A program made the position numbers and the translations under genes. Below, one piece after another: positions 35,628-58,612 of a DNA stretch of 64,000 bases. The notes under the pieces were generated by a model. That model saw only the letters and a list, made by a program, of their open reading frames with translations, did no database searches and was not told the DNA's origin. Source of the stretch: Sulfuricurvum kujiense DSM 16994 (GTDB lineage Bacteria > Campylobacterota > Campylobacteria > Campylobacterales > Sulfurimonadaceae); the NCBI RefSeq assembly GCF_000183725.1, contig NC_014762.1, positions 1,612,001 through 1,676,000 on the forward strand. Direction: 5' to 3'. Each line of letters starts with the position of its first letter. Position 1 is the stretch's first letter.

Positions 35628-36389
35628 ATGACCTTGATGAAATCCGATATTCTGAATCACTTCGATACCATTGCCGAGGTTTTTAATCGGATCTGGTATT
35701 TTTCAGAGGAGTATAAAAACTTTGTTATCCGCCATATCCATCATGACCTCGCACTGACTTCGGACGATACCCTCGTCGATATCGGCGGTGGGACGGGAAC
35801 CTTTACCCGCCGCCTGAAGGATGAGTCAGGGGCTATAAAGGCGTATTGTGTCGAACCCTCCCGCCCTATGTGCGATGAAGCGGAAAAGCTGGAAAATATT
35901 ACCGCCCTTTGCATGGATGCGCACACCTTTATGTCGACCGAAATCCCTTTTTCCAAACTGCTCCTCAAAGAGGTCATTCACCATATCGATAACAGAGAAC
36001 GTTTCTGGCAGAGGGTGTACTATCAGCTTCCGGATAGAGGAAAACTCCTCATCATTACCCGTCCCCAACATACTGCATTCCCCCTTTTTACTTCGGCAAA
36101 AGCCGCATTTGCACGCAACCAACCGCCGTATGAACTCTTTGAGTCCCAGCTCAAAGCGTGCGGTTTCGATGTTATAAGCGCAAAACGGAGTCATACGTTC
36201 ACCCTCCCGAAAGAACACTGGCATGAGATGCTTCGCCACCGTTTTATGTCTGATTTGGGGATCTTCAGCGATGAAGAGATTGAAGAGGGGATAAACGAAA
36301 TCGACGGAATCTATAGTGAAGAGACAATCGATATTATCGACAATCTCATCTTTATTACCGCAACAAAGCAGAATGGTAAACCGGTTTAA
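35628..36389 (+). CDS. SAM-dependent methyltransferase (class I fold)
   Basis: This 253-residue protein has motif I LVDIGGGTGTFTRRL (about residues 46-60), an acidic loop (YCVEPSRPMCDEA) and the post-I motif LLKEVIHHIDN, typical of UbiE/Methyltransf_11-type small-molecule methyltransferases. The substrate is unknown. The start could be codon 1 or the second ATG three codons in; only the first follows AGTAGG. A truncated copy of its first 50 codons lies 2.3 kb upstream, directly after the HD-GYP gene. Its end overlaps the convergent 36386 gene by four bases. Confidence 0.85.
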   Translation: MTLMKSDILNHFDTIAEVFNRIWYFSEEYKNFVIRHIHHDLALTSDDTLVDIGGGTGTFTRRLKDESGAIKAYCVEPSRPMCDEAEKLENITALCMDAHTFMSTEIPFSKLLLKEVIHHIDNRERFWQRVYYQLPDRGKLLIITRPQHTAFPLFTSAKAAFARNQPPYELFESQLKACGFDVISAKRSHTFTLPKEHWHEMLRHRFMSDLGIFSDEEIEEGINEIDGIYSEETIDIIDNLIFITATKQNGKPV

Positions 36390-37672
36390 CCTTTGTATTC
36401 AACAACACGGTTTCGCCCGCTCTTTTTAGCTACATACAATGCTTCATCCGAATGTTTCAAAACCTCTTTGAACGTTTCGTCGTTTAAATCGAATACCGAT
36501 ACTCCGAAGCTGCAGCTTTTGTATCCTATGACGTCAATCGGATGTGTTTCAATCGAAACTCTCAGCTTCTCCGCCAGATTATAAGCTTCCAAACTGGAGG
36601 TATGGGGACAAATAATTAAAAACTCTTCTCCCCCCCAACGCCCCAAAATGTCAGTCTCTCTGATATTTTCGGATAATATTTGAGAGATGGAGACCAAAAC
36701 ATTATCTCCCACATCGTGCCCGTAGGTATCGTTTACCTCTTTAAAATGGTCAATATCAATCATGATGACCGCAAAAAGATGATGATAGCGTTTTGCCCGC
36801 TTAATCTCTTTGGCAAAACTGCTTTCAAGATACATCCGGTTATGCAATTGCGTCAGCTGATCGGTTACCGATATCTCTTCTACCCGCTTTTTATCGGTGA
36901 TATTTTGACTGATCGATGTATATCCGATGTGATTTCCCAAGTCATCGACAATCGGATAGATCAACGTGTCAACCCAGTAAAACGATCCGTTTTTGCTCCG
37001 ATTTTTGATCTCTCCCTGCCACGTATCCCCCCGGCTTATCGTTTCCCACAGTTTTACGAACAAAGATGCCGGCATATCCGGATGTCTTAAAACACGGTGC
37101 ATTTTCCCGATAATCTGCTCTTTTTTGTACCCTGATATCTTGCAAAACGCATCGGAAACTTCGGTGATTTTTCCCGCTAAATCCGTATGGGAAATAATAA
37201 TGTTTTTATCGATAAGAACCATTTGGCTCTCAACCGTTTTAGCGTATTTCTGGCTTTTTTCCAGTGCACGATTGAGCGCATTTTTCAAATTGAACATCTG
37301 CAGCGTATTTTTTATCCGGGCGAGAAGCTCCTCTTTTTGAAACGGCTTGGAGACAAAATCTACCGCACCCGCTTCAAACCCCTTTATGATACTCTCGCTG
37401 TCATGTTTCGCCGTTAAAAAAATAATAGGAATTTGGAAGGTTTCAGGGATCTCTTTCAGCCGTTTCGCGACTTCAAAACCGTTCATTCCGGGCATCATGA
37501 TATCGAGTAATATCAAATCCGGTTTCGGGTCCAGAGAGACGATTTGGAGTGCTTTTTCGCCGTTGGTAGCGACCAAAAGATCATACTCGTGATTTAAGAT
37601 TTCGGCAACGATAGAAATATTTAGAGGTTCATCGTCCACGATTAAAATTTTTTGCCTGTTACTGTATTTCAT
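36386..37672 (-). CDS. response regulator diguanylate cyclase with Aer-type PAS (REC-PAS-GGDEF)
   Basis: The protein has 428 residues. The receiver (about 8-130) has [27 protein letters not shown] and SKPF. The PAS domain (about 150-265) is of Aer type: [16 protein letters not shown] and [10 protein letters not shown] match the FAD-contact regions of Aer, so redox sensing is likely. The GGDEF domain (about 270-425) has WGGEEF and RETD (RxxD). The gene overlaps the end of the hybrid kinase gene by four bases (ATGA), so the kinase is its probable phosphate donor. This makes a two-input cyclase: phosphorylation plus redox state. Confidence 0.92.
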
Positions 37673-40602
37673 CCGATTGAACCTACTATGTTTTGAAGCA
37701 TACGCAATGCATTGTCATACTGATATGAATTCAAATATTCTATCACTTTTTTACGTGAATCCGCATCGGATATTTCCGATAACATCCGTTCAAGCAACAC
37801 AATCCGTTCTGAGTCAATGACTGCCGATTGGGCCAGGTCCTCCATTACGGCATTGATAGTCGTTTTAATCTCATCAGGCGTGTACGATTCATTCATCTCA
37901 TCGGGAACTCTCTCCTGATAGAAAGAACGTATCGCCTCAATCACGTCATGTATGGCGGCAATAAGTCGGAAAGTCAATCCTTCGATCTCTTTCGCATCAT
38001 CGGAGTTTTCAATATCGTTGACGAGCGCATAGACTTTGAACATCGAAAGGTTCCCGCTTGCCCCTTTCATAGTATGGATCAAATGTTTAAAAGGGGCCAT
38101 TTTCAGATTTGAAAAATCAATACGCGATTCAAAGTTCTCGTATTCATTGCAAAAATAGAGCAGATACCGTTTTATCTTTTCGCCGTTGTTCCCGATACGA
38201 TTGCTTAACTCTTTCAGATCAATCCCCTCTATCGTCCCGAAGATTTCCTCATGAGCAATCACATTTTTCTTATTTTCGGAAAAATCATAGCCCCTCTGCC
38301 GAGGTTTGATCCAACGGATAAGCACCTCTATCAAAGCGTCGTAATCGACAGGTTTGCTCAAATGTTCATTCATCCCCGCCGCAGAAGTAAATTCTTTGTC
38401 TTGCTGCATTACAGCGGCACTTAACGCTATGATGGGGACATCTTTATACTCAGGGATCGCTCTAATCGCTTTTGCGGCTTCAAATCCGTCCATTACCGGC
38501 ATTTGCAAATCCATCAATATCAAATCGTAAAGGTGCGATTGCGCCTGTTCGACCGCCTCTTTTCCATTGGCCGCTACATCTACGATCAAATCTGCGTTTT
38601 CGAGCATTTCCACGACAACGATCTGATTAATTCCATTGTCTTCGGCAAGCAAAATTCGCGCACCCCTGATATCATCTACATCCGATTGGGATCGGGCCGT
38701 TTTTTTCTCAAAAGATCGGTAGACCGATGATCTTATTTTTCCGAAAACCGTCGTAAAAATAAATCGGCTCCCTATCCCCTCTTCGCTTTCTACCCATATA
38801 TCACCGCCCATCATCTGCACAAGCTGTTTAGAGATGGCCAGCCCAAGCCCTGAACCGCCGTATTTACGGGTAATCGACGTATCCGCCTGGGAAAACTCTT
38901 GAAAAAGTTTATTTTGCGCTTCGGCGTTCATCCCTATTCCCGTATCTTCCACGCTAAATTGCAGACGAATATCCTCTTCATTTTCATCCGTTGATATCAC
39001 TCGGATACCGATATGTCCCGATTCGGTAAATTTGACGGCATTGCCGACCAAATTGGTCAAAATTTGTGTCAAACGGAGCGCATCACCGATCATGACATTC
39101 TCATTTAGCTGAATATCATAGGTAAGTATAATCCCTTTTTGAACCGCCTGAAATTCAAAAAGACTCATGATATTTTGGATAACGTTGTTGAGTTCAAAGG
39201 GTTTATTTTCCAAATCAAATTTTCCCGCTTCAATTTTTGAATAGTCGAGAATATCGTTAATAATATCCAGCAAAGCATGGGAAGAGAGGTTCGATTTTTC
39301 GAGAAAATCGCGTTGTTTCGGTTCCAGATCGGTTTTCAGGACCAATTCGGTCAATCCGATAATACCGTTGAGCGGCGTTCGGATCTCATGAGACATATTG
39401 GCCAAAAAGTCGGCTTTCGCTTTTGCGGCCGTTTCAGCCGCCTCTTTGGCTTTTTCCAGCTCTAATTGGCGTTCTTTTTGTTCCGTAATATCAATGCCGA
39501 TCGTCGTAACGTACTGCATTTGCCCTTTTTCATCGAGGACCAGAGCGTTTGACCACTCGAACATCCGTTCTATGCCGTCTTTGGAGACCCATGCATTTTG
39601 AAAACTTCGGGTAATCGTCCCCTTCCGTGCATTACTAATAATATTGACGACTTTGTCGTGCATCTCCGGCGGAAGAAATCTTGCCCAGAAATACGGTTCT
39701 GAAGCGATTTCTTGCTGCGTAAACCCGGTAAAACGTTCTCCGTAAGGATTAATATTGATCATTACCCCGTCCCGGTTTAACATCGCAATAATGGCGTTGG
39801 CGCTTTCAACCAATGTCTTATTGATGCTTTTTTCAAAAAGCAATTTGTTTTCAAGCTCATTTCGCTGGATAATGTCCTCTTTGAGTTTTGCCACCACACC
39901 GTTTAATGTCTTGTTCCGTTCTATAATTCGTTTATGCATATGATGCAGTGTCTTGGATAGAACCGCAATTTCCTCCCCTGTCGTTTCGCTATTTACACTC
40001 TGGGCATCTTCATCTTTCGCAATTCTTTGAGCATAAAAGGTCAATTCATTCAACGCGTTTGTCAGCTTGTGTCCGATAATGTAAGAGACAAGAGTGCTGA
40101 TCGTCATCTCTATCATGATCAGCAATAATGTCAAATCCCTGTTATCGTCGATAATCTTCAAACTATCGGTTATTTCAAAGAGGATCTTCGCCTCGCCGAT
40201 TTGCTCGTTATCGATCTTAATCGGTGCGGATACCAGCCTAAAGACCCGTCCGTTTTTCTCTATATTTCCCGATAGGGTATCAAATCGGTCAAGATTGATT
40301 TGCATATCAGTGCTGACATTACAGAGCAGACGCTGTTTTTTATCAAGTATTTTGACTGCGACAATATTTTTCAACTTTACAAAGCTATCTGCTTGATTGT
40401 CCAATGCCCCCAAATCATAAACGATTAACGGCGTTTTGGCCATTTCGGTAAAAAGGGCCGTTGCCGTTTCGATTTTCTCTTCTATCAACGAGTGTGAGAG
40501 CTTTGAAAGCGACATAAAATTGAAAAAGACGATCAAAGAGATAAAAAGGAGTTCTATGCTTAAAAAAGCGAGGATAAAACGGTACCGGAAGGACAGACGC
40601 AT
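37669..40602 (-). CDS. hybrid sensor kinase: sensor, HAMP, PAS, HisKA-HATPase, REC, Hpt
   Basis: This 977-residue protein has a membrane helix at about 10-30, a periplasmic domain (about 31-155), a second helix (about 157-177) and HAMP (about 178-232). Then come PAS (about 262-385), HisKA with [12 protein letters not shown] (about 412), an ATPase domain with [13 protein letters not shown], a receiver with [19 protein letters not shown] and SKPVD, and a C-terminal Hpt domain with [10 protein letters not shown]. This is a complete BarA/ArcB-like relay in one chain. The upstream PhnD-like gene ends three bases before its start, and the REC-PAS-GGDEF gene overlaps its end. It probably moves a periplasmic ligand signal to c-di-GMP synthesis. 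Confidence 0.94.
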
Positions 40603-40605
40603 TCA

Positions 40606-41414
40606 TTACTCTTCAATCGAAGACATGGAATGGGCGAGACCGCGCACACTGTCATACTCGCCGTCATCCGTTTTTTTCAAACGCTTCATACTCAATGAGA
40701 TAACCAGTTCCTGAGGCATTTGCAAAAGCGCGTTTTCCATTTTTTTCTTCAGGTTCTTAGAGAGAGAACGGTGAAACGCGAACGGATGGCTGGGATAGGA
40801 TCTGGTTCTATAGATTATGAGGAGAGAATCTTTTGACTTTTTGTCCTGCAAATCGTTAAATGTCCGCTCGATTCCCCCCCCGCATCTCCGATTTTCCGTG
40901 CTACCCCTTTATAAACCGACTCATGGGAGTTTACATAGCGGTATTGTTTCTCTTTATTAATGTCTATGTTGTATTTTTTGAGTAGCTCATATTTTACAAG
41001 AAGCGTTGCGGCAAAAGCATCGGGAGCAGGGAACAGAAACTCTTTCCCTTTTAACATCGAAATATCGCGTATACCGTCCTCTTTTCGGACGACTACGATT
41101 CCCACCACATTTTTCTCATCGCGGATTAGCGCATCATACCCTTCCCGTTTATGGGCGATTACATAATGGTATGGACTCATATAGGCTATATCGTACCCGC
41201 CGTTGTACACTACTTTCTCAAACTCGGGGATCGAGTGCTCGACTTTCAGCGCTATTTTCTCTCCCGTACTCTTTTCAAGATAATTGATTACAGGCTGCCA
41301 TTTTTTGATCACTTCCATCGAACTTTGCTGAGGAACGACACCGAACTTCAGTACGTCCGCATGGCTGATACTCATGAAAAAAGCGTGCATAAAAAAAAGT
41401 GCGATATAGTGCAT
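40606..41414 (-). pseudogene. PhnD-like periplasmic binding protein, frameshifted at a G8 tract
   Basis: Two frames together encode one protein. Frame 1 (start 41414) gives a signal peptide and a PhnD/PBP-like domain: LKFGVVPQQSSMEVIKKWQP, YDIAYMSPYHYVIAH, LLVKYELLKKY, NSHESVYKGV. It leaves frame at eight consecutive G on the minus strand (40874-40881) and stops at 40815. The second frame continues the family directly after the tract (IERTFNDLQDKKSKDSLLII) and runs to the stop at 40606. One more G, or two fewer, would restore a protein of about 269 residues. It is probably the ligand receptor for the adjacent hybrid kinase. A sequencing error in the tract cannot be excluded. Confidence 0.8.
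40874..40881 (-). repeat. homopolymeric G8 tract (C8 on the plus strand)
   Basis: Eight G in a row on the coding strand, inside the PhnD-like sensor gene, at exactly the point where the frame shifts. It is the longest G/C homopolymer I noticed in the window. Poly-G tracts of this size mediate slipped-strand phase variation in Campylobacter and relatives. Confidence 0.85.
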
Positions 41415-56293: not shown

Positions 56294-58612
56294 TTAAATC
56301 ACACTGACCCTGTTTCTTCCGCCTGCTTTTGCTTCATAGAGGGCATCATCCGCCTTTTTTAGAAGCGATTCTTTCGTTATTTCCTCTTCCGCTTCTTTAA
56401 ATGCCATTCCGATACTGATGGTGATATGATCGGCTGCTGAAGAATACTCGTGACTTATCTTCAATCCTTCGACCGCTTTGACTAAACTCAATGAGACCTG
56501 TTTTGCCCCTTCAAAATCGATACTTTTGAGTAACACGACAAATTCTTCGCCTCCGTAGCGGGCAATAACGTCACTCGGACGTTTAAGAGATTTTTTGAGC
56601 ACTTTAGCGATTGCAATCAGACATGCATCCCCTTTTGCATGCCCGTAATTATCGTTATAGCGTTTAAAATGATCGACGTCTATCATGAGGATCGCCAACG
56701 TTTTGTGATCACGTAAAACCTCTTTGTAGCTCTTCTCATACATTTGGTCGAAAAAACGGCGATTGGCAATCTGGGTCAGCCCGTCTATCATCGCCAGCTC
56801 TTTAAGCTGATTGTTTTTGAGTTTTAAAGCGGCATTTGCGGTTTCAAGTTTTGATTTTGTCTCAAGGAGTTCTTGATTGATGAGTACCTGTTCGGTGATA
56901 TCCTGCACCGTTCCCCGAGAAAGTATCGCATTTCCCTCTTTGTCATATTCAGTGTCCCCAACTTCCCGAACCCATTTAATCCGTCCGTCCTCCATTAAAA
57001 GGCGGTGGGTAATCGTATATTTTTGCCGATTTTGGAGCGAGTACAGATAGACACGGTTAACATTTTCCCGATCCTCGGGGTGGATAGCATGGACAAAAGC
57101 CTCATACGAAGCACGAAATTGCAGCGGATCAATCTCAAAAATATGATAGATTTCATCCGACCAAATCAGTTTATTGGTGATGATATCAAACTCCCAACTC
57201 CCCATATGGGCTATTGCCTGAGCTTTTTTAAGACTTAATTCACTGTTTTGAAGAGTCTCTTGAATCGTTTTTTCTTCCGTAATATCCCGGAAAACAACGA
57301 TCGCCCCATCCTCCGCCGAAGCTACGGTCAGGCTAACGGGAAAAAAAGAACCGTCACGGCGTATTAAATACTCTTCAGAAGTACGAGTTATTCGATCATT
57401 CAACGTACGATAAATAGGGCATTCGGATTCATCATACACTTCATGTGTCATTTTATGATGATGGAAAAGGGCGTGTTGATCTTTGTCCAAAACCTCTTTT
57501 TCACTGTATCCTATCATTTTGAGTGCCTGAGCATTGATCCATGTGCATTTTCCCTCATGATTCACACCGTATACGCCATCTCCGATGTTAGAGAGGAGTG
57601 ATTCGAACAGTTTTTTTCTCCTCTGCTCACGCGTATAGTAGATCAAAACAAGCAATAATGCCGCCACCGAAACAATCAGCTCTATTTTGTAACGTTTCCA
57701 GATATCTAACAAGGTAATATCGGGTGCATGATCAAACGGAGGGAGACGCAAATGGCGGGCAAGCTCTTCTACGCTCAGGTAATCGGCAGGGAGAGTATAG
57801 CCATAAATCCCCGATTCCCGCATCCCTTTCTCAGTCGGTTGGAGCGAAAACAGAGCCGCTACAAAGGCTTTTGTATCCGATTCTTTGGTATGAGGAAGAG
57901 CAAAAACAGGCCATTCGGGATAAAGCTGGGTCGAGACTCGGTAGGGGTACTCTGATCTATCCTTCTCCTGAATCACTCGAACATCGCCCGTCCGTATCTC
58001 ACCGTGCGCAATCATCTCTTCCAAGATGCCATCACGGATAAATCCGACGTCGGCTTTTCGCATTAGCACATCATGCACTACCTCTTGATGAGAACCGTGG
58101 TTTTCAATAATCTTTTTGCTCTCATTTAAAATATCGATACCGTTTTTATACAGTTCATACGCTTGCGAACGAAATCCCCCCATATGCTTTAAACTCGGGG
58201 TTTCTACCGTTTTGCCTTTGATATCCTCGAGTGTATAGATGGAGCTTTCGGGGCGGACGAAAATAACGCCGCCGAGTTTGCTGGTTGGTTTCCCATCTTC
58301 ACTGACGCTGATAAGTGTCGCAAGAACTCCGCTAAGGGGATATTCGTTCCGTACGACAAGAAAATGGGTGGGGTTGGTGGTAGCAATATCCAACTCCCCT
58401 TTGGCAATTTTCTGATCCATCGCTTCTTGGGTCAAAATATCCAATACTACCCGATTATCCAATTTGGTATTCAGATAATCGACAAGAGGCTGATATTTCT
58501 CTCGGGTTTTTTCAACCCCCATATAGGCGAAGACACCAAAGTGAATTGCCTCTTTGGCAGAAGCGGAAGTAAAAACTAAAAGGAGAAATAAAAGGGATGT
58601 CAACCGGTTCAT
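56294..58612 (-). CDS. PhnD-like sensor diguanylate cyclase (PhnD-PAS-PAS-GGDEF)
   Basis: The protein has 772 residues with a signal peptide (about 1-19) and a PhnD/PBP-like domain (about 22-285; IHFGVFAYMGVEKTREKYQP, LDIATTNPTHFLVV). A membrane helix (about 310-328) leads to two PAS domains (about 340-455 and 460-580) and GGDEF (about 610-770) with YGGEEF and RPSD (RxxD). PhnD domains bind phosphonates, phosphite or other oxyanions. It is a one-protein version of the separate PhnD / hybrid kinase / cyclase chain at 36-41 kb. The first PAS carries CTWINAQALKMIGYSEKE; no cofactor motif is clear. Confidence 0.92.
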   Translation of the reverse strand: MNRLTSLLFLLLVFTSASAKEAIHFGVFAYMGVEKTREKYQPLVDYLNTKLDNRVVLDILTQEAMDQKIAKGELDIATTNPTHFLVVRNEYPLSGVLATLISVSEDGKPTSKLGGVIFVRPESSIYTLEDIKGKTVETPSLKHMGGFRSQAYELYKNGIDILNESKKIIENHGSHQEVVHDVLMRKADVGFIRDGILEEMIAHGEIRTGDVRVIQEKDRSEYPYRVSTQLYPEWPVFALPHTKESDTKAFVAALFSLQPTEKGMRESGIYGYTLPADYLSVEELARHLRLPPFDHAPDITLLDIWKRYKIELIVSVAALLLVLIYYTREQRRKKLFESLLSNIGDGVYGVNHEGKCTWINAQALKMIGYSEKEVLDKDQHALFHHHKMTHEVYDESECPIYRTLNDRITRTSEEYLIRRDGSFFPVSLTVASAEDGAIVVFRDITEEKTIQETLQNSELSLKKAQAIAHMGSWEFDIITNKLIWSDEIYHIFEIDPLQFRASYEAFVHAIHPEDRENVNRVYLYSLQNRQKYTITHRLLMEDGRIKWVREVGDTEYDKEGNAILSRGTVQDITEQVLINQELLETKSKLETANAALKLKNNQLKELAMIDGLTQIANRRFFDQMYEKSYKEVLRDHKTLAILMIDVDHFKRYNDNYGHAKGDACLIAIAKVLKKSLKRPSDVIARYGGEEFVVLLKSIDFEGAKQVSLSLVKAVEGLKISHEYSSAADHITISIGMAFKEAEEEITKESLLKKADDALYEAKAGGRNRVSVI

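Follow-up and report, generated by a model that had tools for sequence, protein, structure and literature searches.

The window analysed here is a 64,000-nucleotide stretch of the Sulfuricurvum kujiense DSM 16994 genome, which comprises five contigs (2,819,357 bases); the window lies on the 2,574,824-base contig, its relatives are Sulfuricurvum MAGs, and a search of a plasmid collection returned no match. Three neighbouring genes on the minus strand concern us: a gene for a PhnD-like periplasmic binding protein (40606–41414), a gene for a 977-aa hybrid histidine kinase with a membrane sensor half followed by PAS, HisKA, HATPase_c and REC domains (37669–40602) and a gene for a 428-aa REC-PAS-GGDEF diguanylate cyclase with a GGEEF motif (36386–37672), the domain architectures being assigned from domain matches. 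The kinase and cyclase genes are intact, and the start codon (ATG) of the kinase gene immediately follows the double stop of the PhnD-like gene (TAATGAATG).

The PhnD-like gene goes out of frame within eight consecutive G of the minus strand (C8 on the plus strand; 40874–40881). The minus-strand open reading frame that spans 41414–40815 encodes 199 aa and matches positions 1–169 of the 242 in the Pfam Phosphonate-bd profile (PF12974, PhnD-like periplasmic binding proteins), and positions 174–242 are matched by the second frame, which extends to 40606. As these parts of the profile are complementary, they represent one member of this family whose single domain is broken within the G run. Upstream of the run (40884–41414, minus strand) lie a signal peptide and the first ~177 residues, which include profile positions 1–169 and share about 60–77% identity with Sulfuricurvum orthologues. 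As sequenced, the 199-aa product ends in an out-of-frame tail and stop (40815–40873, from the open reading frame map), and the shifted frame covering the 3′ part of the gene (IERTF...SSIEE; 40606–40873, profile positions 174–242) is conserved. In alignment with intact orthologues the junction is one base short, so that the frameshift named in the original prediction is real in the consensus sequence; that prediction also held the gene to be intact on both sides, with about 269 residues once the frame is restored, in agreement with the 268–270 aa of intact orthologues.

Conservation of the gene and of the site

A close orthologue was found in 13 other Sulfuricurvum genomes, with an open frame in every one (271–319 aa from stop to stop). 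In a sample of 399 genomes from the order, close matches turned up in 18 further genomes, in 17 of which the frame was open over 264–291 aa; the remaining match was 199 aa long and lay 98 bases from a contig end. The junction motif in intact orthologues reads GD-x-GGG-(I/V)-x-R-T-(F/Y), and sequence and alignment together place the G8 run on its conserved Gly-Gly-Gly. Relatives spell these residues with mixed glycine codons (for example GGC GGC GGC GGT), and where the motif was read no orthologue had a G run longer than six, most having two to four. A comparison of tract length in relatives, proposed alongside the original prediction, therefore yielded no run comparable to G8, and the persistence of a run with differing length among relatives that marks a contingency locus was not seen in the orthologues read. 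The codon GGG is common in the long open reading frames of the window (215 of 755 glycine codons), and the length of the run in this lineage can be attributed to GGG codons at the conserved Gly-Gly-Gly motif.

Against near relatives, pN/pS averaged 0.25 for the upstream part (0.18 among the relatives themselves) and 0.38 for the downstream part (0.32 among the relatives), and all 14 downstream columns that were invariant in the other 15 aligned sequences are kept in the window. Constraint on the two parts is thus similar, and the lack of decay downstream, already noted in the original prediction, indicates that the break, if real at all, is far younger than the species split. The window sensor departs from otherwise invariant residues in a few places (L69V, N80S, D165E), which might reflect altered selection before the break. 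A relative-rate test gave no sensor-specific acceleration; because the window lineage branches outside genomes G014 and G030, and because the window's branch is the longer one for the operon as a whole, this test is uninformative about decay of the sensor. An apparent excess of downstream changes at conserved columns (8 versus 0–2 in a six-taxon set) was discarded when more taxa gave 7 versus up to 9, and in the larger set none of these changes fell at columns invariant in all other sequences.

Homopolymer runs in the window, genome and genus

The genome contains 11 G/C runs of at least eight, against about 24 expected by chance from dinucleotide content, so that the G8 run is itself within chance expectation. 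When the contexts of the other ten were read from the stretches around them, eight were in frame inside intact open reading frames, typically on Gly-Gly codons, as in the GGEEF motif of a different cyclase. Of the remaining two, one lay in a probable tRNA gene, called from a look at the sequence rather than by a tRNA scan, and one at the end of an open reading frame. Of the 11 runs, the one at 40874–40881 alone clearly breaks a gene, and, according to the open reading frame map, no other run of at least seven G/C or eight A/T in the 64-kb window coincides with a gene break. A search for a genome-wide poly-G repertoire in this genome and in 41 genomes of the genus Sulfuricurvum found none, G runs of at least ten occurring in three of the 41.

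Sensor structure and signalling output

An intact orthologue matched the structures of PtxB, PhnD, ArrX and AioX, and its model (mean pLDDT only 75, weak around the junction) matched those of PtxB, PhnD and ArrX. Sequence alignment places the C-terminal 90 residues across the PtxB core, and on this basis the truncated product is not expected to fold; as sequenced, the sensor would be left without the C-terminal third of the fold and is expected to be inactive. Since the kinase ATG directly adjoins the double stop, early termination may also lower translation of the kinase through lost translational coupling. The arrangement resembles the three-component sensors AioX/AioS and ArrX/ArrS, in which a PhnD-family periplasmic protein is likewise encoded beside a membrane histidine kinase, but the output of the window operon is a GGDEF protein and theirs a transcription regulator. 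AioX binds arsenite with the use of Cys106 (PMC5908839); the upstream part of the window sensor contains no cysteine, so this residue is absent and the protein falls outside the AioX arsenite-sensor subfamily.

The combination of PhnD-like gene, hybrid kinase gene and REC-PAS-GGDEF gene, recognised in the original prediction as an operon, is syntenic in relatives; the kinase (977 aa) and cyclase (428 aa) have identical lengths in G014 and G030, and the cyclase is 428 aa long in several relatives. In Aliarcobacter-labelled MAGs (L009, 5992–8806) the PhnD-like gene is followed by a gene for a single 664-aa protein, the N-terminus of which resembles the sensor half of the kinase and the C-terminal end of which is PAS-GGDEF, an arrangement that, judged from its domains, bypasses the phosphorelay. 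Within the window, 15 kb from the split gene, a 772-aa protein (56294–58612, minus strand) has a PhnD-like Phosphonate-bd domain fused directly to PAS-PAS-GGDEF and so combines this type of sensor with its output in a single polypeptide. As relatives and this paralogue both join the sensor to GGDEF, c-di-GMP is supported as the predicted output of the operon.

Origin of the frameshift

The likeliest origin of the frameshift is a recent accidental slip, or a slip in the sequencing, and not a switch that evolved to turn the gene on and off. We infer that in an ordinary conserved sensor operon, consisting of a PhnD-like binding protein, a membrane hybrid kinase and a REC-PAS-GGDEF cyclase, conserved Gly-Gly-Gly codons became by chance a long G run in this lineage, and that the accidentally slippery run then lost one base, either really or in the consensus; we assign these two branches jointly a probability of about 0.8. 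If the loss is real, for which we see roughly even odds, the sequenced culture would have lost the base recently and carried a null allele that is probably revertible because MutL is absent (a search of the genome found no MutL and three MutS-type ATPases). That the length of the run was miscounted, the gene of the living strain being intact, is somewhat less likely. Homopolymer miscounting is a classic sequencing error, no other gene is broken at a homopolymer in the 64-kb window or at a G/C run of at least eight in the genome, and the downstream frame is fully conserved; yet the eight other in-gene G/C runs of 8–9 are all in frame, which argues against any systematic undercount, and the genome was reportedly finished with two sequencing platforms.

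The original prediction went further and saw in the run a possible phase-variable switch. On this reading it is a contingency locus at which slipped-strand mispairing would turn the sensor, and with it the c-di-GMP relay, on and off. Campylobacter jejuni, of the same phylum, has no functional mismatch repair, and its G8 tracts, which are at the lower end of the tract lengths that switch in Campylobacter, mutate with an insertion bias, tract indel rates being 1e-4 to 1.6e-3 per division (PMC8355987). By this analogy, and with MutL absent, the G8 of the window is a physically plausible slippage-prone site that, if real, could revert readily; it is long enough to slip, lies inside an open frame and is flanked by conserved frames on both sides. 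Unlike the C. jejuni poly-G loci, however, it is single and non-conserved: nothing comparable was present in any orthologue read, a tract repertoire is lacking from genome and genus alike, GGG codons at a conserved motif account for its length, and nine of the ten other runs in the genome are harmless (in frame or non-coding), the tenth lying at the end of an open reading frame. We therefore regard adaptive phase variation as improbable; the frameshift and its position within the run stand, as do the conservation of the downstream frame, the operon and its connection with c-di-GMP, but the proposed switch is unsupported, the run being unconserved and the genus almost devoid of long poly-G. In C. 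jejuni, homopolymer frameshifts also turn off two-component signalling genes (flgS/flgR), but these involve short A/T tracts considered non-reversible (PMC8355987), rather than a G run in a periplasmic sensor. It is very unlikely that the gene is functionally unbroken, with some full-length sensor made by programmed or fortuitous −1 ribosomal frameshifting or by transcriptional slippage. The run does present the heptamer G GGG GGG in a suitable register, from which shifting by −1 gives the conserved residues, but this fit follows from any one-base loss within a run. Of the constructs reported for Escherichia coli, a G_GG.G_GG heptamer lacking a stimulator shifted least, at 0.018% for G_GG.G_GG.U (PMC4066793). 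No significant stimulatory RNA structure was found downstream of the run (z −0.83), and the run is not conserved in relatives. A programmed −1 frameshift gene, with an efficient heptamer, a stimulator and conservation, was accordingly rejected as a candidate.

Should the shorter run prove real, this sensor would be missing from the sequenced strain, a point relevant to studies of c-di-GMP signalling and to annotation of the genome. If instead the run were a switch, a harmless, free-living sulphur oxidiser would generate clonal variants that differ in having or lacking a ligand-controlled c-di-GMP relay. More generally, a poly-G frameshift in Campylobacterota should not be read as phase variation without recourse to relatives and reads. 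The wider family, in which a PhnD-like protein feeds a kinase–GGDEF pair or is joined directly to GGDEF, offers a modest lead.

Other G runs

Two further G runs lie inside genes for GGDEF proteins: a G7 run at 36630–36636 of the window and a G9 run at 1619–1627 of L052, the latter falling precisely on the GGEEF codons. Neither run puts its gene out of frame, but both could be places within cyclase active sites where slippage is frequent. Three genomes of the genus (G012, G007 and G019) have roughly 50–90 G8 matches each, compared with 14 in the genome of the window, a surplus that base composition may explain.
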